Of a DNA stretch of 39,958 nucleotides, positions 3,570-39,041 are shown in pieces; position 1 is the stretch's first letter, and each line of letters begins with the position of its first letter. The stretch is from assembly GCA_016280595.1 (NCBI GenBank), contig JAEEHB010000021.1, positions 1 to 39,958 on the forward strand, written 5' to 3'. The DNA comes from Clostridiaceae bacterium. Its GTDB lineage: Bacteria; Bacillota; Clostridia; Oscillospirales; Acutalibacteraceae. The translations under genes and the position numbers were made by a program. Below the pieces are notes generated by a model, which was not told the origin of the DNA, made no database searches, and saw only the letters and a program-made list of their open reading frames with translations.

Positions 3570-4052
3570 TTAATCCGGATAATACTCGTCTTTCTTCATA
3601 ATCCAGCTGACGGGATTGTCATTTATATAATTCCATTTTATTTCAAGGTCTTCCTCATCACGAATCACGTGGTCATAAAAGCCTTTCTGCCATATACTTT
3701 TACCGCATTTATGCGAAACCCACCGCTTTAATCCGCCTATTATTACGGAAACAGATTTGCAGTTTTCGCCATACATATGAAGCAATAAATGAATATGATT
3801 GGGCATTATAATATAGTTATCAACCGAGACGTTTTCATAATGCTGTTCGATTTGCAGAATTGCATTTTCAACAATTTTGCCATATGGTTTAAGAACTATA
3901 TCGGGCATATAGTTTTTGCCTGAGCCGGAAACAACCGAAGAAAGTAACTGCTTATGGTTTTCCGTGCATAACGTAATAAAATAAATGCCGTTTTCTTTAT
4001 ATTCAATTGTTTTCAGCCTGTTGGGCTTTCGTTCCGGCAGTTTTTCTTCCAT
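3570..4052 (-). CDS. REP-associated tyrosine transposase (RAYT, Y1 family)
   Basis: A 160-residue protein of the Y1/IS200-like HUH transposase superfamily, RAYT branch. It begins with the typical RLKTIEYKENGIYFITLCT stretch. The HUH metal-binding pair is in MPNHIHLLL (His86, His88). The catalytic Tyr is most likely Tyr126 in the WQKGFYDHVIRDE motif, followed by the usual YINDNPV. The length is normal and the frame intact, so the enzyme may be active. RAYTs nick and join single-stranded DNA at REP hairpins. Copies of a REP-like repeat lie on both sides of the gene, one inverted, as expected for such pairs. The ribosome site is not obvious. The gene looks richer in A/T than its neighbours, consistent with mobility. 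Confidence 0.9.
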   Translation of the reverse strand: MEEKLPERKPNRLKTIEYKENGIYFITLCTENHKQLLSSVVSGSGKNYMPDIVLKPYGKIVENAILQIEQHYENVSVDNYIIMPNHIHLLLHMYGENCKSVSVIIGGLKRWVSHKCGKSIWQKGFYDHVIRDEEDLEIKWNYINDNPVSWIMKKDEYYPD

Positions 4053-5410: not shown

Positions 5411-7603
5411 TCAGAAGTTAATCATATATTTGGTGAAGAAGCCTACAACCTTGGTGAAGAAATCACCGAAGGCTCTGGACATAATAACGCCGGCGTGAGT
5501 GGGCAGACCTACCATATAATGGAGCCAGTGCTGCCAGAATTTGAGTTCGGCGCCGCAGCCGTCGCAGAGGAAGTCGTAGTCAGCGTCAACGTGAGCAAGT
5601 GATGAGCCCAAAGTGTAGCCACATCTCTCACATTTTGCAATGTGGCCCGAGCCGTCATCGGTTGAGGAGTAAACGAAGCTGTGGCCGAGAGCCGCGCCGT
5701 AATCTTCGGTCTGGGTGTCGCCGCATCTCTGGCATGCGCGCTCGCGCTTGCCGGTATTGGTACAATCGGGATCCTTGGTTACATGCCACTCGCCCCAGTT
5801 GTGGCCGAGAGCGGGAGTGAAGTTGTCTTTCACTAATTGTCCGCACACATTACACAAAGTTTCAGTATAACCTTCCTCTACACATGTAGCAGGATGAGGT
5901 GTTCCTTGATTACCGGTAGTATCATGATTAGTAAGAGTAGTTTTTGTTTCTTCTTCAAAACATCTTCCGCAAACACGTTTTTCTATTTTAGGAGTGGTAC
6001 AATCACCTGCTTGAGTAACGAACCAACCTTCTTCATCTTTTCCGTCTTGTCCCCCGCCCCAATCATGACCTTTTGCAGAGCCAACATCGGGGACAGCATC
6101 CGAAACATGTCCGCATCTGTCACAGGGAGCGGTTCTGGTGCCGTCCTTGGTGCAGCTTGCATCTCCGTTGGGCTTGTACTTATCTCCTTCCACCCAGTTT
6201 CCGTCTTCATCCTGATAACGCATATATTCTTTATTTTCGTATTTATGACCAAGAGCGGCTTTCTCTCCGTCCTCTTTTTTAAGCTGACAAATAAAGCCTT
6301 TATCGTTCACATTGATACGAGGATCAAGCGGATTTTCTTCAATTGATTTCTTGAGTGTTGAGTTTGAATCCTTATCAATTTGATTTGCAATAGTATCTAT
6401 TTCCGAATCATCCAAGCCCATATCGACAATAATCTGTCCGATAGTGAAAATTGCATAGTAAGCTATTCCTGAGCCGGATTCACAATCCGGGTCAGCGTTT
6501 ACAGCAAGAGGCTTGCTCGTTTCCGAGTTGGCGTAAACAGCACCATTATCACTCGGGCTCGTGTAAACCGTATAAGAAACGGTATGGCCGCATTCGGGGC
6601 GCTTACATTTGAATGTCAATGTGCATGACTCATAATTAGAGCTGAATTCAAAATTAACATATTCTCTCTGTGCGCCATCAATTCCGGCATCGTTAAACCA
6701 ATAATGCCCGAGTGCAGGGATAGTGTTCTCTTGTGTTTCACCGCAAATTATACATGTATAAGTATCCAAACCGGCAGTAGTACAGGTTGGTTCGGTGTGC
6801 AGAGACAACTGCCATTTGTGACCGCAGAAGAATCCGCAGACATCACATTTTCCGTCTTTGTTATCATCTTTATGAAGCTTTGTTTCTTCCGGGATATCAT
6901 CCACAGAATCAAAAATCTCTTTTTCGTCGACGGTAACTTTGTCGCAGTATTCACAAACTTTCCAGTGATAGTAGTCATCATGTTCAAAGCCACCTTTAAA
7001 ACTGTGGCTGAAGTTTTCGCAATCATGGAACCCGCAAGCAGTACAATCGCCAAAAGCGTTCAACTTGTGAGAAACGGTATCTAGACAATATATACATGTA
7101 TGGGTGCCGTCTTTATTGTCTTCATAAAAATGATTATCCGTTCCGCAGCCTTCATACTCAAGACCGCATTCCGAACAAGCTCCCTCCACTACTGCCTTGC
7201 CGTCTCCATCCTTTGGAAAATCGTGAGGTCTTTCCCAAGTCTGACTGCACGCTTTACAAACAGTTGAGTGGGTTTTGTCATTACAAGTGCCTGAATAAAC
7301 ACCATATTCTCCGCCCCAATGACCCTTTGTTGAACAATCATAAATGTATCCGCACTTTGTACACTGGCCATTGGTACTGCCATCTGCGAATACGTGATCC
7401 TCTGTTTTTTCTCCGCAATGACTGCAAGTAAAATAATGGCTTGAAGAGTTCTTTGGCCTGTAAGAATCTTCAACAACTTCGTGACCGTCTGTTTCGCAGT
7501 TCCATTCGCCCTCTGCGAATGCGGGTACGGCAAGTGCCACACAGCCGAATACCAAAGCGATACTCAGCAGGATGGAAATGAGCCTTTTGTTCATTTTCTT
7601 CAT
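5411..7603 (-). CDS. Secreted protein with many CxxC (zinc-ribbon-like) repeats
   Basis: A 730-residue protein with a signal peptide (about 1-30, ending VPAFA). I count fifteen C-x2-C pairs, for example CSHC, CTKC, CKAC, CSEC, CIYC, CDVC, CIIC, CDRC, CGRC, CNVC, CQRC and CERC, most followed by Gly and alternating with GH motifs such as ALGHNWGEW and ALGHSF. Such C-x2-CG/GH modules are common in secreted Clostridia proteins and could bind zinc or form disulfides; their role is not known to me. The last ~40 residues are hydrophobic and aromatic (PTHAGVIMSRAFGDFF...), perhaps membrane-associating. DNA for roughly 5830-7480 looks clearly more A/T-rich than for 5411-5830, suggesting a mosaic gene. 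Ribosome site AAGGAA. The downstream partner is a lipoprotein. Confidence 0.85.
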   Translation of the reverse strand: MKKMNKRLISILLSIALVFGCVALAVPAFAEGEWNCETDGHEVVEDSYRPKNSSSHYFTCSHCGEKTEDHVFADGSTNGQCTKCGYIYDCSTKGHWGGEYGVYSGTCNDKTHSTVCKACSQTWERPHDFPKDGDGKAVVEGACSECGLEYEGCGTDNHFYEDNKDGTHTCIYCLDTVSHKLNAFGDCTACGFHDCENFSHSFKGGFEHDDYYHWKVCEYCDKVTVDEKEIFDSVDDIPEETKLHKDDNKDGKCDVCGFFCGHKWQLSLHTEPTCTTAGLDTYTCIICGETQENTIPALGHYWFNDAGIDGAQREYVNFEFSSNYESCTLTFKCKRPECGHTVSYTVYTSPSDNGAVYANSETSKPLAVNADPDCESGSGIAYYAIFTIGQIIVDMGLDDSEIDTIANQIDKDSNSTLKKSIEENPLDPRINVNDKGFICQLKKEDGEKAALGHKYENKEYMRYQDEDGNWVEGDKYKPNGDASCTKDGTRTAPCDRCGHVSDAVPDVGSAKGHDWGGGQDGKDEEGWFVTQAGDCTTPKIEKRVCGRCFEEETKTTLTNHDTTGNQGTPHPATCVEEGYTETLCNVCGQLVKDNFTPALGHNWGEWHVTKDPDCTNTGKRERACQRCGDTQTEDYGAALGHSFVYSSTDDGSGHIAKCERCGYTLGSSLAHVDADYDFLCDGCGAELKFWQHWLHYMVGLPTHAGVIMSRAFGDFFTKVVGFFTKYMINF

Positions 7604-9845: not shown

Positions 9846-10439
9846 TCAGATTTCGCGGCGGAGCTCCACTACCTTTCCGAAGAAAGTGACCGGCAGTTTC
9901 GCCACCTGCTCCCTCGTATAGAAAATCGAGTTATACTCCGGATTTTCCGCCATGAGCAGTATGCCGTTTTTGAGCACTTTGAGGCGCTTGAGGGTTGAAT
10001 TTTCGCCGCTCTCCATTGCAACGACGATGTCGTTATCCTCCACCTGGCTCTGGATTCTGACTACGAGAGTGTCGCCGCTCTGAAACATAGGATACATGCT
10101 CTGCCCCTTCACGGTAAGCGCACAGTATTCGCCGCGCCTCGCGAGTTCGGGTGAGATGGCGACAAACTCGCACACATCCTCGTCTTCTATAAATGTCATT
10201 TCGCCTGCCTGCACGAAGCCCTTTACGGGAATCATCACGGGGTCGTCGGGGGTGTCAAGCCCGAGAATCGCGCCGATGGAGCAGTGAAAAATCTGGCTCA
10301 GGGCGATGAGCATATCGGTATCCGGATTGGTCCTGCCCTTTTCCCACTGGCTGATTGCCGTCTGATGCACTCCGCAGAGTTCGGCGAGTTCGAGCTGGGA
10401 AAGGCTGGCCTTTTTTCTGAGTAATCTTATGTTATTCAT
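9846..10439 (-). CDS. XRE-family repressor with S24 self-cleavage domain
   Basis: A 197-residue phage-CI/LexA-like repressor. Residues 1-60 are a Cro/C1 helix-turn-helix (LSQLELAELCGVHQTAISQWEKG). Residues about 68-190 are an S24 peptidase fold: possible cleavage site Ala78-Gly79 in VQAGEM, nucleophile Ser114 in KGQSMYPMF, and Lys151 in STLKRLK. Such repressors cut themselves on contact with RecA filaments, releasing genes after DNA damage. It is transcribed away from the lysis operon at 10663 with divergent promoters 30 bases apart, so it most likely controls that operon and itself. It is not the housekeeping LexA: it has an XRE rather than a winged-helix N-terminus. Ribosome site GGAGGAAC precedes the ATG. 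Confidence 0.9.
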   Translation of the reverse strand: MNNIRLLRKKASLSQLELAELCGVHQTAISQWEKGRTNPDTDMLIALSQIFHCSIGAILGLDTPDDPVMIPVKGFVQAGEMTFIEDEDVCEFVAISPELARRGEYCALTVKGQSMYPMFQSGDTLVVRIQSQVEDNDIVVAMESGENSTLKRLKVLKNGILLMAENPEYNSIFYTREQVAKLPVTFFGKVVELRREI

Positions 10440-10532
10440 AGTGTTCCTCCGTTCTTTTAAGAGCAGATTTATTGACCTGCCCGGGGAATGAAAAAACAGT
10501 CCGATAATTCCGCGTGCTATTATTCAGCCTAT

Positions 10533-10561
10533 ATTATGAGGCATTCTATTGAAAAAGTCAA
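10533..10561 (-). promoter_or_regulatory. Leftward promoter of the repressor gene
   Basis: Minus strand TTGACT (10561-10556), 17 bases, CATAAT (10538-10533). It points at the repressor ATG at 10439. Confidence 0.6.
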
Positions 10562-10572
10562 GCGAAAATCGC
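10562..10572. promoter_or_regulatory. Candidate operator between divergent promoters
   Basis: GCGA-AAA-TCGC is a short exact inverted repeat placed between the two -35 boxes, where a CI-like dimer could block both promoters. Only one copy is seen, so the assignment is tentative. Confidence 0.3.
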
Positions 10573-10590
10573 AAAAAATTATTTTTCCTA

Positions 10591-10619
10591 TTGACAGACT
10601 CAATTTTCGGGTCTAAAAT
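10591..10619 (+). promoter_or_regulatory. Rightward promoter of the lysis operon
   Basis: TTGACA (10591-10596), 17 bases, TAAAAT (10614-10619). It lies inside a longer open frame beginning at 10549, which argues that the first gene starts at the downstream ATG 10663. Confidence 0.7.
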
Positions 10620-10662
10620 TATTAGTGGTGCTCGTATTTTTGCACGGAATCGAGGTGATTTA

Positions 10663-11268
10663 ATGAATATTACTATTGATAACGGCACTGCCGACATCTC
10701 TCTGCCGAGTGAGGAAGAGATGAAAGAAGCCGTTAAAATCTGCTGCGGAAGGTGCTGTCACGAGTGTGAAACGCCCGTTGAATACGCCTGGAGAAAGCGG
10801 ATGCTGGACCTCGCCGGACTGACCGGGAGAGCAGTTGAAGAGGTACTCAGCGAAGCGGAAAAAGCGTACATAAAGGCATACTATTATGAGGGCAGAAGCA
10901 CGGGTGAAATCGCCGGTGAAAAAGGAGTTTCACGCTCTGTTGTATGCGCGGCTCTCACAAGGGCAAAGGAAAAACTGCGCAGGGCTCTCGGTTACGCCGT
11001 AATCTACCAGAATTCGCTTGAAGGCGGGGCTCAGACGGAAGCGTTTACGGAATACGCCCTGCATATTATCGGGGCGCGGCACTGCAGGAGCGAAGATGTC
11101 GGCACACGGCTCAAAGAATTGCGAAGCGCGAGAGCCGTGAATACCTCTGCCGCCGCAAAAGCGCTCGGCATAGGCATAGAGCGTCTGCTGGATATTGAGG
11201 CAGGCAGGGTGGAACCGCTTGCCCGGGAAGTGCTCGGGCTTTGTGAAGTGTATGGTGTTATAAACTGA
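10663..11268 (+). CDS. Double helix-turn-helix regulator with Cys cluster
   Basis: A 201-residue protein. Residues about 61-110 read like sigma-70 region 4 (LSEAEKAYIKAYYYEGRSTGEIA, VSRSVVCAALTRAKEKLRRAL). Residues about 145-198 look like a second, XRE-type helix-turn-helix (VGTRLKELRSARAVNTSAAAKALGI, ERLLDIEAGR). Near the N-terminus is CCGRCCHEC (Cys 27, 28, 31, 32, 35), which could bind a metal. The ATG at 10663 has a GAGGTG ribosome site at 5 bases; a longer frame from 10549 runs over the promoter and is rejected. As first gene of the operon it may act as activator or late-gene regulator of the downstream lysis genes. The family is not known to me by name. Confidence 0.75.
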   Translation: MNITIDNGTADISLPSEEEMKEAVKICCGRCCHECETPVEYAWRKRMLDLAGLTGRAVEEVLSEAEKAYIKAYYYEGRSTGEIAGEKGVSRSVVCAALTRAKEKLRRALGYAVIYQNSLEGGAQTEAFTEYALHIIGARHCRSEDVGTRLKELRSARAVNTSAAAKALGIGIERLLDIEAGRVEPLAREVLGLCEVYGVIN

Positions 11269-11283
11269 AAGGATGATGATGTG

Positions 11284-11514
11284 ATGAAAGATCTTAAAGA
11301 ACTTGCCCTGAGTTATTACCGCGGCGCGGACATCGTGGCGCAGAGAATAGCCGAGAGGCGAAGAAGACTTAACAAACTCGGCAAAGGGAGCAGAGAAGCC
11401 GGCATACTGCGGGATGAACTGAATGTGCTCTACCGCGAGCGCAGGGACACGCTTGAGACGGCGGACCTGCTTTGGAACTATTATGGGGGTGACAGGCATG
11501 CACAGGTACATTGA
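11284..11514 (+). CDS. Small charged protein of the lysis operon
   Basis: A 76-residue, mostly helical, Arg/Glu/Leu-rich protein with no signal or membrane segment. An in-frame GTG at 11281 is an alternative start; AAAGGA lies 7 or 10 bases upstream. Its end overlaps the start of the next gene by 17 bases, so translation is probably coupled. No family is recognised. Small proteins of this kind occur between phage tail and lysis genes, but that is only context. Confidence 0.6.
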   Translation: MKDLKELALSYYRGADIVAQRIAERRRRLNKLGKGSREAGILRDELNVLYRERRDTLETADLLWNYYGGDRHAQVH

Positions 11515-12259
11515 GGGGAATATAGGTGAAAACAGGGCGCTCACCTTCGCCGCCTGCTGCGGTTACACCGGGGAAAACGATGCAAACTGCCTGAAAATCC
11601 GCCTTGAAAATACCGATATGCAGGGAGCGGGAAGATACTTTGTGACCTTTGAAATCTCGCCCGGAAACACGGTGGTTTCAAATGAAATCACAAACGAAAA
11701 CTGCCGCCCCGCCTTCATAAGCGAAGGATATATTTACTGCCCGCTCACGGCGTCTTTGACGCAGTCCGGAAACCTTGCGGTGCAGGTGACCGCCGTATAT
11801 ACGCAGGGCGAAGAAGAAAGGGAGGTTAAATCGGGCGTTGCCCGCCTGTCATTCGGCGAATCGCTCGGGCAGGCGTTTACCGTGATGAGTGAGGAATACA
11901 GCGGCGTTTTCTCCGCTCTTGACAGCATTGAAGCCCGCCTTGATATCGCGGAGGAAGCCCTGCTGAACACGGACTACGACCTGGTCGCGGCGGCGGTCTG
12001 CGCCTCGCTCGTATCAAAGCGCGACGGCAGCACAAGGCTCTACTGCCCCGCTTCGGCGGACGAAGCGGCGGGCCTTATAAATCACATAATCGAGAGCGTT
12101 GAGCCCGATGAAAATATTACGCATCTCGTGGTCACGCCTGCGGCTGAATTCACACGCGCCTGCCTTTACATCGTGAGGGTAAACTCCGGCTCGTGCACGG
12201 TTTCGGTGCACTCGGGTGCAGAGCTCATAAGGCTGTTGCTGAGCGAGGTAAGCGAATGA
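11498..12259 (+). CDS. Phage baseplate/tail-fibre-like protein
   Basis: A 253-residue protein. The first ~125 residues are beta-rich and resemble the N-terminal domain of upper-baseplate proteins of Gram-positive phages (LTFAACCGYTGENDANCLKI, YFVTFEISPGN, YIYCPLTASLTQSGNLAVQV, GVARLSFGESL). The rest includes a helical linker (about 130-160) and a beta-rich C-terminal domain. The start ATG 11498 is chosen for its GGGGGTG ribosome site; an upstream in-frame ATG lies inside the previous gene. Its stop overlaps the amidase start as ATGA. In phages, such genes lie just before the lysis genes. No other tail or capsid gene is present. The family call is tentative. Confidence 0.5.
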   Translation: MHRYIEGNIGENRALTFAACCGYTGENDANCLKIRLENTDMQGAGRYFVTFEISPGNTVVSNEITNENCRPAFISEGYIYCPLTASLTQSGNLAVQVTAVYTQGEEEREVKSGVARLSFGESLGQAFTVMSEEYSGVFSALDSIEARLDIAEEALLNTDYDLVAAAVCASLVSKRDGSTRLYCPASADEAAGLINHIIESVEPDENITHLVVTPAAEFTRACLYIVRVNSGSCTVSVHSGAELIRLLLSEVSE

Positions 12260-12999
12260 GAGGAGATATTGTAATATCCGTAGGTCACGGCAAAAACGCC
12301 GCCGGAAAATATGACCCGGGCGCTGTGAGCAGGGACAGGAAATACCACGAGCACCGCATAGCAAGGGAGATTGCACGGTATGCCGCGGAGTATCTGCAGT
12401 GCGATATAATCAACGAAAACGGAAACAGATGTCTCGCCGAAAGGATAAGGGATGTGAACGCGGGAAACTACGGCTTCGCGGCGGAAATTCACCTTAACGC
12501 GGGCGGAGGCACGGGCACGGAAACCTATTACTACCACGGCTCCCCCACCGGAAAACGCGCGGCGGACGAGGTGAGCAAAAGCATAAGCGGGGCGCTGAAA
12601 ATACGAAACAGAGGGCCCAAAATCAGGCTCAACTCCGCAGGAAGGGATTACTTCGGCTTTATCCGTCAGTCGAAACCCTGCGCCGTGCTGATTGAAACAG
12701 TGTTCATCGACTGCGACAGCGACCTTGAAAAAGTGAAAACTCCCGAAGGTGCGAAGGCCTGCGGCGAAGCGCTTGCGAAAGGGCTTGAAAAGGCGCTTGC
12801 GGAAAACACTCATTACGAGGTGACCGCCTGCAACATCGCCGTGAGAAGCACGGCTGATGCGGACAGCCCCGAAATAAGACGGCTCGCAAAAGGCGAAAAT
12901 TTCAAGGTGACAATCACGGCGAAAAACGGAAAATGGGGCAGACTGCCGGGCGGCGGCTGGGTAAACCTTGAAAAAGGATGCAGGAGGGCGAAGAAATGA
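12256..12999 (+). CDS. N-acetylmuramoyl-L-alanine amidase (endolysin) with SH3 domain
   Basis: A 247-residue amidase of the Amidase_3 fold, a zinc enzyme that cuts the bond between N-acetylmuramic acid and L-alanine in peptidoglycan. Seen: ISVGHGKN (His11), Glu32 in HEHRIAREIA, His79 in AEIHLNAGGG, and the catalytic Glu147 in LIETVFIDCDSD. A bacterial SH3 domain follows at about 188-240 (CNIAVRSTADADS...GGGWVNLEKG). There is no signal peptide, so release to the wall would need a holin, and holin-like genes follow directly. The ATG overlaps the previous stop and has a GAGGTAA ribosome site; a longer frame from 12193 lies within the previous gene. Confidence 0.92.
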   Translation: MRGDIVISVGHGKNAAGKYDPGAVSRDRKYHEHRIAREIARYAAEYLQCDIINENGNRCLAERIRDVNAGNYGFAAEIHLNAGGGTGTETYYYHGSPTGKRAADEVSKSISGALKIRNRGPKIRLNSAGRDYFGFIRQSKPCAVLIETVFIDCDSDLEKVKTPEGAKACGEALAKGLEKALAENTHYEVTACNIAVRSTADADSPEIRRLAKGENFKVTITAKNGKWGRLPGGGWVNLEKGCRRAKK

Positions 13000-13193
13000 A
13001 CTGGGAAATTCTGTTTTCTTTTCTGGGCTCGGCAACCGGCTGCATAGCGGGCATACTCGCGAGCCAGAAACTCACCAACTACCGACTTGAAAGGCTTGAG
13101 GAAAAGGTGAACAAGCACAACAATCTTGTGGAAAGAATGACCGTAAGCGAAATGAAAATACAGATGATGGAGGATAAACTCAATGAATCTTAA
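12996..13193 (+). CDS. Small membrane/coiled-coil protein, XhlA-like
   Basis: A 65-residue protein with one N-terminal membrane segment (about 4-24, ILFSFLGSATGCIAGILAS) and a charged coiled-coil tail (LERLEEKVNKHNNLVERM). The position between endolysin and holin and the topology resemble hemolysin XhlA-type phage proteins that work with a holin, although in XhlA the membrane segment is at the other end. ATG overlaps the amidase stop (ATGA) and has an AGGAGGG ribosome site at 7 bases. Confidence 0.7.
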   Translation: MNWEILFSFLGSATGCIAGILASQKLTNYRLERLEEKVNKHNNLVERMTVSEMKIQMMEDKLNES

Positions 13194-13437
13194 AGACGTG
13201 AGCGCGGGCACCTGGGCAAGACTCGCGGTGCTGATTGCGGCGCTTGTAAACACGGCGCTTATCATATTCGGGCGCAGCCCCCTCTCCGCTCTCGGAGACG
13301 GCGGAAACATTGCGGGGATTGTGATTGCGGTCGCTTCAGCCCTGCTCTCTTACTGGAAAAACAACTCCTTCACCCGCGCCGCACAGGCGGCGGACGAGGT
13401 GATGGCGGAGCTGAAAAAACTCCCGCGCGTAAAATAA
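13183..13437 (+). CDS. Phage holin, SPP1 type
   Basis: An 84-residue protein with two membrane segments (about 12-30 and 42-60) and a basic C-terminal tail. The motif SYWKNNSFTRAAQAADEVM is typical of SPP1-type holins. Holins open the membrane at a set time so that a cytoplasmic endolysin can reach peptidoglycan; the endolysin two genes upstream has no signal peptide, which fits. Start overlaps the previous gene by 11 bases; GGAGG at 9 bases. With the genes from 10663 it forms one overlapping operon. Confidence 0.88.
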   Translation: MNLKDVSAGTWARLAVLIAALVNTALIIFGRSPLSALGDGGNIAGIVIAVASALLSYWKNNSFTRAAQAADEVMAELKKLPRVK

Positions 13438-13511
13438 TTTTATAAGCGGTGCAACACTTTGCCCCGGAAGAGTCACATATAAGTGACACAAATAACCGGG
13501 AGGAAGAAAAA

Positions 13512-13583
13512 ATGACACTGCTTATCTGCGGAGTAACCGCCTTGCTTGTGGGAATTTTCGTGTATGCGGAACTCCCCTGCTGA
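13512..13583 (+). CDS. 23-residue membrane micropeptide
   Basis: ATG to TGA encodes 23 residues, MTLLICGVTALLVGIFVYAE and then LPC, which is one hydrophobic membrane segment. A strong ribosome site GGGAGGA (13498-13504) stands 7 bases upstream. It lies 74 bases after the holin stop, beyond a GTCAC-ATATAA-GTGAC inverted repeat at 13472-13487. It could be an extra lysis component or an antiholin-like peptide, or a chance frame; the ribosome site makes translation credible. The rest of 13438-13760 holds the rpsO promoter and leader. Confidence 0.5.
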   Translation: MTLLICGVTALLVGIFVYAELPC

Positions 13584-38930: not shown

Positions 38931-39030
38931 AAATCCTTTGCAGGATTTGTGAAGTATGCTCCGCATGTGAAATGTGCTTCGCACGTGAAATACGCCTTCG
39001 GTATGTGAAATACGCCTGCGGCGTGTGAAA
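38931..39030. repeat. Tandem array of covarying hairpins with GTGAAA spacers
   Basis: Five small hairpins in a row, separated by GTGAA(A): AAATCC-TTTGCA-GGATTT, ATGC-TCC-GCAT, GTGC-TTC-GCAC, ATAC-GCCTTCG-GTAT and ACGCC-TGC-GGCGT; a last GTGAAA ends at 39030. Unit length is about 18-20 bases. Stem sequences differ between units but each keeps pairing, while the spacer is constant. No protein-coding frame fits. It lies between the tRNA-Gly terminator and the promoter at 39042. Confidence 0.7.
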
Positions 39031-39041
39031 CACTTCCGCAA

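Follow-up and report, generated by a model that had tools for sequence, protein, structure and literature searches.

A predicted DNA-damage-triggered lysis operon, probably host-owned, in a genus of herbivore-gut Clostridia

The window, i.e., the whole stretch of 39,958 nucleotides that we analysed, is one entire contig (C27) of a Clostridiaceae bacterium whose genome measures 1.83 megabases and is 78% complete. Upstream of rpsO and pnp, it carries a cassette in which the gene of an S24 repressor is divergent from an operon that encodes a regulator, a 76-amino-acid (aa) protein, a phage tail-type protein, an Amidase_3 endolysin, an XhlA-like protein and an SPP1-type holin. Why does a bacterium carry phage-type lysis genes with no recognised virion genes beside them? 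The first-pass annotation left two options, a small prophage remnant or a kept (domesticated) programme; the distribution, substitution rates and flanks of the cassette favour the second. We consider it likely that the cassette is a host-owned lysis operon triggered by DNA damage, which arose from two parts of a prophage, its control region and its 3′ end (tail tip and lysis genes). What can be read from the sequence is the gene content, its conservation, purifying selection, the LexA-type boxes of relatives, the invariant autocleavage residues of the repressor and a largely vertical inheritance.

Distribution, descent and selection of the cassette

Every gene that the first-pass annotation had placed in the divergent arrangement is present with an open frame, based on open reading frame (ORF), Pfam and PHROG analyses, and adjacent ORFs from the 76-aa protein through the holin overlap by 4-17 bases. 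The genes are as follows.

9846..10439, minus strand: S24/LexA-type repressor, 197 aa, with an Xre helix-turn-helix (HTH) and Peptidase_S24 (Pfam)
10663..11268, plus strand: regulator, 201 aa, with a Cys motif, sigma-70 region 4 and an Xre HTH (Pfam and alignment A1)
11284..11514, plus strand: 76-aa protein following the regulator (neighbour conservation)
11498..12259, plus strand: phage tail-type protein, with an N-terminal beta domain, a helix and a small alpha/beta C-terminus (model and profile matches)
12256..12999, plus strand: endolysin, Amidase_3 with a weak SH3-type C-terminus (Pfam, PHROG)
12996..13193, plus strand: XhlA-like membrane protein, 65 aa (phrog_1863, 4e-9)
13183..13437, plus strand: SPP1-type holin, 84 aa (Holin_SPP1 PF04688, 1.3e-17; phrog_263)

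The lysis genes bear out their first description as a signal-less amidase, an XhlA-like protein and an SPP1-type holin. The endolysin scores 3.3e-22 with Amidase_3 and shows, by eye, no hydrophobic N-terminus; its residues H11, E32, H79 and E147, which we take to be candidate zinc ligands, are invariant in all 18 aligned sequences. The XhlA-like protein is 59-84% identical where found in congeners. The holin reaches 64.1 bits with Pfam Holin_SPP1 (gathering score 27) and stays under the cut-off of its NCBIfam equivalog (38.6 versus 47.3 bits). As had been annotated, no terminase, capsid, portal or integrase gene was recognised in the window, based on an ORF list read by eye and on family searches with the cassette and eight other genes; for all other ORFs, reading by eye was the only check.

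The regulator was found at E < 1e-40 in 39 of 45 congeners, with one strong copy each (37 full-length, one truncated in G007, and one split over contig ends in G011), and in 13 of the 15 congeners that are at least 90% complete, so that the cassette is not the single-strain feature that the first-pass annotation had allowed for. A scan of one genome per species gave 38 regulator loci, every one in a record under the name Clostridia, Clostridiales, Ruminococcaceae, Oscillospiraceae, Clostridiaceae or Bacillota; many of the titles refer to herbivore guts. Across the order, 394 genomes were sampled and up to seven candidates scored in each genome listed; among these candidates, the full-length regulator appeared only in the window's genome and partial ones in three genomes of genus g39. 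Relatives of the amidase were found at E < 1e-40 in 18 of the 36 congeners searched, and matches in 23 other genomes of the order, one per other family, were 1.7e-7 or weaker.

Endolysin and holin genes occur together in 20 of the 39 congener loci that we mapped. The repressor and the complete downstream set are present in 11 loci, the same set without a detected XhlA-like gene in two, and the full set with no adjacent repressor in five (two at contig edges). The tail-type protein is missing in three loci, one of which (G025) has a truncated amidase and no XhlA-like or holin gene that we found; the amidase is missing in two, and three are cut by a contig end at or after the tail-type gene. The other 13 consist of repressor, regulator and small protein alone, one of them (G026) having only 866 bases downstream before its contig ends. 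The absence of lysis genes from 13 of 39 genomes suggests that the regulator has a role besides lysis. The 76-aa protein adjoins the regulator in all 39 mapped genomes and has no convincing family match in Pfam or PHROG.

In a midpoint-rooted regulator tree (n = 38; the G011 fragment was excluded here and from the promoter count below), the deepest split has genomes with lysis genes on either side, and 12 of the 13 lysis-less genomes form one clade (95/80), from which G026 stands apart. This pattern is most simply explained by a lysis operon in the ancestor and at least two losses. The RecA tree contains a matching split, which separates nine genomes of the window's clade from seven others (100/99). 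Splits in common with RecA number 8 of 13 for the regulator (16 genomes), 8 of 13 for the small protein (16 genomes) and 8 of 10 for the repressor (13 genomes), counts matched by none of 2000 label shuffles; this sharing indicates that the control genes were mostly inherited vertically. The first-pass annotation took the position before rpsO-pnp, a stable core locus, as a sign of long residence. The site does recur in seven congeners (G000, G060, G004, G007, G011, G020 and G034), but these are only 7 of the 39 mapped, so that the operon is probably older than its position. The G026 cassette lies near rpsO-pnp, and in G064 the site is cut off by contig ends; elsewhere, the cassette is flanked within 4 kb by other host genes (for example, for an S41 peptidase, an M28 peptidase, a DUF554 protein or a phosphorylase).

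Ratios of nonsynonymous to synonymous substitution rates (dN/dS) ranged from 0.02 to 0.43 across every cassette gene in 14 species pairs (Nei-Gojobori, where computable; three values with saturated dS were left out). Because many dS values exceed 1, single ratios are rough, and none is near neutrality. By gene, they were 0.02-0.12 for the repressor, 0.06-0.33 for the regulator, 0.07-0.43 for the small protein, 0.15-0.39 for the tail-type protein and 0.02-0.21 for the XhlA-like protein. The endolysin (0.10-0.19) and the holin (0.09-0.29), for which neutral decay had been named as the sign of a remnant, are thus under purifying selection. The three remaining genes of the lysis-less clade are also constrained (0.03-0.18, five pairs), and decay was seen in the truncated regulator of G007.

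Decayed phage genes next to the cassette, another sign named at first, were sought in 114 flanking ORFs from 25 cassette loci (122 were listed; six longer than 1000 aa, one of 824 aa and one of 102 aa were omitted). Ten PHROG families matched below 1e-20, none of them terminase, portal or capsid; they include one match each to an integrase, an invertase, a primase/helicase and a tape-measure protein. At 1e-5, among the 25 families listed of 50, two members match a minor head protein and several families are endopeptidases. A small prophage remnant heading to loss and retained by chance would account for the 13 of 39 genomes without lysis genes and for the three more in which the amidase is missing or truncated. 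Against such a remnant, to which we give only a slight chance, stand the purifying selection on every gene, the broad agreement of the gene trees with RecA, retention on either side of the deepest regulator split and the like design in other genera.

Control of the divergent promoters

The region between the repressor and the regulator contains the following elements.

10533..10561, minus strand: repressor promoter-like site, TTGACT-17-CATAAT (consensus match only)
10535..10549, minus strand: putative S24 operator 1 (ATAGAATGCCTCATA), overlapping the repressor promoter (element similarity)
10591..10619, plus strand: operon promoter-like site, TTGACA-17-TAAAAT, with 11 of 12 consensus matches
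10622..10636, plus strand: putative S24 operator 2 (TTAGTGGTGCTCGTA), directly past the operon -10 (element similarity)

Both domains of the repressor exceed their Pfam cut-offs (HTH_3 PF01381, 1.9e-16; Peptidase_S24 PF00717, 1.8e-22). The presumed cleavage site, A78-G79, and the catalytic S114 and K151 are invariant in 11 of 11 aligned orthologues, at what we take to be LexA-like spacing. The repressor sequence matches LexA structures, and it is not the LexA equivalog of NCBIfam (59.6 bits versus a cut-off of 110.95). An element like operator 1 was extracted from all 11 genomes of the window's clade, and operators 1 and 2 are spaced 87 bp in G000, G004, G060 and G007. As two similar elements, one at each divergent promoter, they would be candidate S24 operators.

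Of 38 regulator promoters, 26 have a LexA-type box (two mismatches at most) inside the -35/-10 spacer or overlapping it. The 12 promoters without it are the 11 of the window's clade and that of G066. The boxes of related species and the invariance of the autocleavage residues therefore strengthen the damage response proposed in the first-pass annotation, but for the operon promoter in the window this response would depend on the S24 repressor alone. A LexA-box-like motif was seen by eye upstream of lexA in five loci. Canonical LexA (E < 1e-12) was present in nine of nine tested genomes outside the window's clade and in none of seven inside, of which four gave weaker matches (1e-4 to 1e-7) and three none; as the window-clade genomes are 78-100% complete, single absences are soft. 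L171, the one of these weaker matches that we read, is a different LexA-like protein whose score falls slightly short of the LexA cut-off.

The recA promoter follows the same division. A LexA-type box is found 35-39 bases before the start in 7/7 LexA-bearing genomes outside the clade and in 0/9 inside it. In the window's clade (loci within L215-L230), AATAGTnnnAATAATATT or a close variant replaces the box and resembles the S24 site past the regulator -10; an S24-operator-like site at the LexA-box position was present in all nine window-clade genomes looked at. Using a leave-one-out matrix of the regulator-side site, the expectation per 200 bp at recA was 0-0.07 in the clade versus 0.09-5.9 outside. 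The best recA match fell at -32/-33 in 9/9 genomes with the regulator-side matrix, in 6/9 with both sites and in 3/9 with the repressor-side matrix, two of these last three being not above chance. Two-mismatch LexA-like matches also occur 245-290 bases upstream of recA in six of the nine. Since these genomes are related, the recA sites count as one evolutionary event and are suggestive only.

A takeover of the entire SOS regulon by the S24 repressor was considered and rejected. The strict operator pattern was no commoner than its reversed control in 5/5 genomes, and of 25 non-cassette operator matches, the 21 that had a locus were all inside ORFs. The Y-family polymerase promoters of G000, G060 and G007 (L233, L235 and L236) carry, by eye, a different palindrome, GGACAnnnTGTCC, which also precedes the second LexA-like gene (L171) and recA of G020 and G034, and which is probably the operator of a divergent LexA. 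With operator matches at control level and inside ORFs, and with GGACAnnnTGTCC at the polymerases, a general takeover is not supported, and recA alone is suggestive.

The regulator had been called a double-HTH protein. The presence of two DNA-binding domains stands; by Pfam, these are a sigma-70 region 4 and an Xre-type HTH behind an N-terminal Cys motif, and the two halves resemble, by sequence, sigma region 4 and Xre-type repressors, respectively. Its structural model has a predicted local distance difference test score (pLDDT) of 84.1 and a predicted template modelling score (pTM) of 0.73. In the N-terminal motif CCGxxCxxC (window 10741-10770), C27, C28 and C32 are invariant in 17/17 sequences of alignment A1; the motif is present in the regulators of genus g255 and absent from 18 other loci of other genera, and metal or redox sensing is a possible function.

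Damage-type control joined to a complete lysis set would also fit abortive infection, in which DNA damage caused by a phage triggers early suicide lysis. PADLOC returned no specific match, just the HTH matches of repressor and regulator and one weak holin match, and the distribution of the regulator, which is present in nearly all of the genus, is not patchy; we judge this explanation very unlikely.

Tail-type protein, phage relatives and known systems

The tail-type protein had been described as baseplate-like. The window protein has no match in Pfam, PHROG, NCBIfam or the phage collection, and its profile gave eight matches among solved structures, the best at only E 0.047. The profile did match proteins of a prophage-like locus of a congener, L058 (5e-12, beside lysis genes), and of a viral contig, L210 (5e-8), and the tail-type description draws its support from these two similarities. 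L058 carries the matched tail-type protein (itself without a PHROG match), an Ig-domain tail-type gene upstream of it, and XhlA, holin and amidase. Weak, scattered matches to tail or baseplate families were obtained for some of 18 tail-type relatives, whose lengths range from 244 to 479 aa. The structural model of the window protein has a pLDDT of 85.6 and a pTM of 0.48.

In a phage-type contig of a congener, L046 (G015:C113), a tail-type gene, an amidase gene and a holin gene lie directly before terminase and portal genes, the amidase being 71% identical to that of the window. The alignment of amidases identified nine viral loci, at best 52% identical, and the window amidase alone found none in the viral contigs. 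As phages of the same hosts carry a similar block, the operon is most likely phage-derived; an exchange of the lysis block between phages and operon, in either direction, is possible. A phage source of the regulator was sought and rejected: in a pattern-seeded scan of viral contigs with the regulator alignment, 16 stretches fit the patterns, none of which was confirmed as a relative.

Could the operon instead be a late-gene helper that supplies tail tip and lysis functions for the particles of a tailocin or prophage encoded elsewhere? The tail-type protein is retained with the lysis genes in many species, the lysis block has a close relative in L046, next to terminase and portal genes, and three operons of other genera encode short proteins that, by eye, presumably resemble XkdX of PBSX. 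Yet of the 11 cassette genomes searched for an HK97-type capsid, a search that did not cover tail genes, 8 have none, G000 and G007 (100% complete) among them; moreover, the tail-type protein varies in length as given above and is missing in three genomes that keep the amidase. We regard the helper role as improbable.

Regulated release of a cargo by partial lysis, in the manner of holin-dependent secretion or bacteriocin export, is another explanation, with the tail-type protein or products encoded elsewhere as cargo. The logic is the same as that of UviA-UviB-Bcn5 of C. perfringens in the available text of PMC9527704, a Peptidase_M14 protein occupies the tail-type position in one operon of another genus, and the dN/dS of the tail-type protein is the highest of the cassette in four of eight pairs and tied in a fifth. 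It is also the lowest in one pair, and its range indicates a protein constrained overall, which speaks against a cargo; no toxin or bacteriocin domain was found in the window protein using Pfam, PHROG, PADLOC and NCBIfam. Cargo release seems to us unlikely.

PBSX is under Xre/Xpf control, and its lysis genes lie behind its tail genes. The late region of this element, a mitomycin-induced operon, shares with the window XhlA, a holin and an amidase (xhlA-xhlB-xlyA), and expression of xhlAB-xlyA released vesicles in B. subtilis, as given in the available text of PMC5589764. In contrast to PBSX, which has a head and a contractile tail, the window operon has no particle genes recognised nearby; it consists of few genes under a promoter of their own, and nearly the whole genus has its regulator. 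In C. perfringens, uviAB is under ultraviolet (UV)/SOS control. UviA-UviB-Bcn5 likewise groups a sigma-type regulator, a holin and an amidase with a releasable protein, and related to it are clostridial toxin loci with a sigma factor, a holin and sometimes an endolysin; the available text of PMC9527704 describes UviA-UviB-Bcn5 as always associated with an N-acetylmuramoyl-L-alanine amidase. The window cassette differs in having no identified bacteriocin or toxin, a regulator with only sigma region 4 and an Xre HTH, and an added S24 repressor. The endolysin gene of explosive cell lysis in P. aeruginosa sits in a pyocin cluster, whereas no particle genes were recognised beside the window operon. 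That RecA-regulated endolysin, which comes from a cryptic prophage region, releases cytosolic content and vesicles (PMC4834629 and PMC5589764, available text). The domesticated R-type tailocins of solvent-producing clostridia are prophage elements that have long been integrated in their hosts and include a lysis module (PMC10538166, available text); unlike the window operon, which has just a tail-type protein and lysis genes, they keep tail genes. In the available text of the open literature that we searched, partly by narrow searches, no such operon was found described, which does not imply its absence from print.

Related operons, proposed events and neighbouring features

Matches to the sigma-domain profile are numerous and generic across the family (E < 1e-10 in 128 of 300 genomes). 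Among the best, we fetched 24 regions of other genera, of which 20 hold a regulator-type gene; the other four (L291, L292, L295 and L300) encode short sigma4-like proteins in another setting and were excluded from the box counts. Endolysin genes are present in 15 of the 20, L288 has a holin only, L287 is cut at a contig end, and L286, L289 and L296 have no lysis genes. The endolysins are of the types Amidase_3 (g255 by custom profile, g237 by Pfam), GH25 (g244 and g175 by Pfam; L301 of g237 by custom profile; L302 by eye, with no NCBIfam match), NlpC/P60 (L282 and L284; L283 and L285 by resemblance), M23 (L290; L298 by resemblance) and M15 (L294; L299 by resemblance). An S24-type repressor is adjacent in seven regions. 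Within the 451 bases around the start, 13 of the 20 contain a LexA-type box, against 2.3 expected from shuffles; in one of the 13, L286, no promoter was found. In genus g39, each of three loci has a sigma-type gene, an XhlA-like gene, a holin gene and, by eye, a GH25-like gene, and two of them also have a tail-fibre-like gene; a perfect LexA-type box lies past the -10 in one locus, and the other two have none.

Two endolysins contain a dockerin type I domain, one with NlpC/P60 (L284:4974-5636) and one with Amidase_3 (L293:9669-10427), hinting at a tie to cellulosome-type complexes.

A tentative, though possible, generalisation is that these operons form a family-wide class, in which a sigma4-HTH trigger with a small partner, gated by S24 or LexA, would be combined with interchangeable tail-type proteins and endolysins (amidase, GH25, NlpC/P60, M23 and M15, two with dockerin domains), and that the window's clade may have recruited the cassette repressor to the recA promoter.

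For the window operon, the S24 repressor on two operators would hold both divergent promoters low. DNA damage would activate RecA, which would promote self-cleavage of the repressor in the fashion of LexA; outside the window's clade, the operon promoter of most relatives is probably bound by LexA as well. The derepressed operon would produce the sigma4-type regulator, perhaps in a self-reinforcing manner, together with its 76-aa partner, the tail-type protein, a cytoplasmic amidase and the XhlA/holin pair. The holin would then give the amidase access to the cell wall, and cell content would be released. We infer repressor cleavage, operator binding and lysis, as well as a benefit, which may lie in setting free enzymes, vesicles, DNA or the tail-type protein.

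Several observations weigh against this interpretation. Just the repressor, the regulator and the small protein were retained in 13 of 39 genomes, the amidase is absent in two genomes and truncated in one, and 9 of 39 have no adjacent repressor with no contig edge to account for it. In four of the 18 amidase-bearing congeners (G015, G019, G027 and G035), the matching locus is phage-like or not of the cassette type, and 3 of the 11 cassette genomes tested have capsid genes elsewhere. The tail-type protein has no obvious role when a tail is lacking, and the window promoter, having no LexA-type box, would leave damage control there to the S24 repressor.

The prophage lysis genes known to set free vesicles, DNA or toxins belong to phage, tailocin or toxin loci. 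The window cassette seems instead to be a stand-alone lysis programme with core-gene-like inheritance in a genus of herbivore-gut Clostridia; outside the window's clade, most species add host SOS boxes to it, and it recurs in other genera with the endolysin exchanged. If this is true, a gut lineage would have programmed lysis in response to damage among its normal traits, with a bearing on nutrient release, enzyme sharing and the antibiotic response in the rumen and colon, and the operon would offer a clean system for asking why bacteria keep cell-killing genes.

One further small gene adjoins the cassette.

13512..13583, plus strand: 23-aa hydrophobic micropeptide between the holin gene and rpsO (peptide conserved in congeners)

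The micropeptide is the same in G060, G004 and G007 and is conserved in G000, and a more distant version occurs in G034; its pattern was not found in five other congeners, one of which, G020, gave a weak tblastn match. Downstream, rpsO and pnp were identified with NCBIfam, as were an aldehyde dehydrogenase gene, mnmE and mreB, other bacterial genes among those tested in the window. Two more score under their NCBIfam cut-offs, a MinD-like ATPase and, at 3570-4052, a gene that resembles REP-type transposases. The window also encodes a Cys-rich protein of 730 aa that looks secreted (5411-7603), a homologue of which, a 1317-aa ORF, adjoins the aldehyde dehydrogenase gene of G007. A Gut-1 RNA (Rfam RF01706) is located at window positions 38965-39036.

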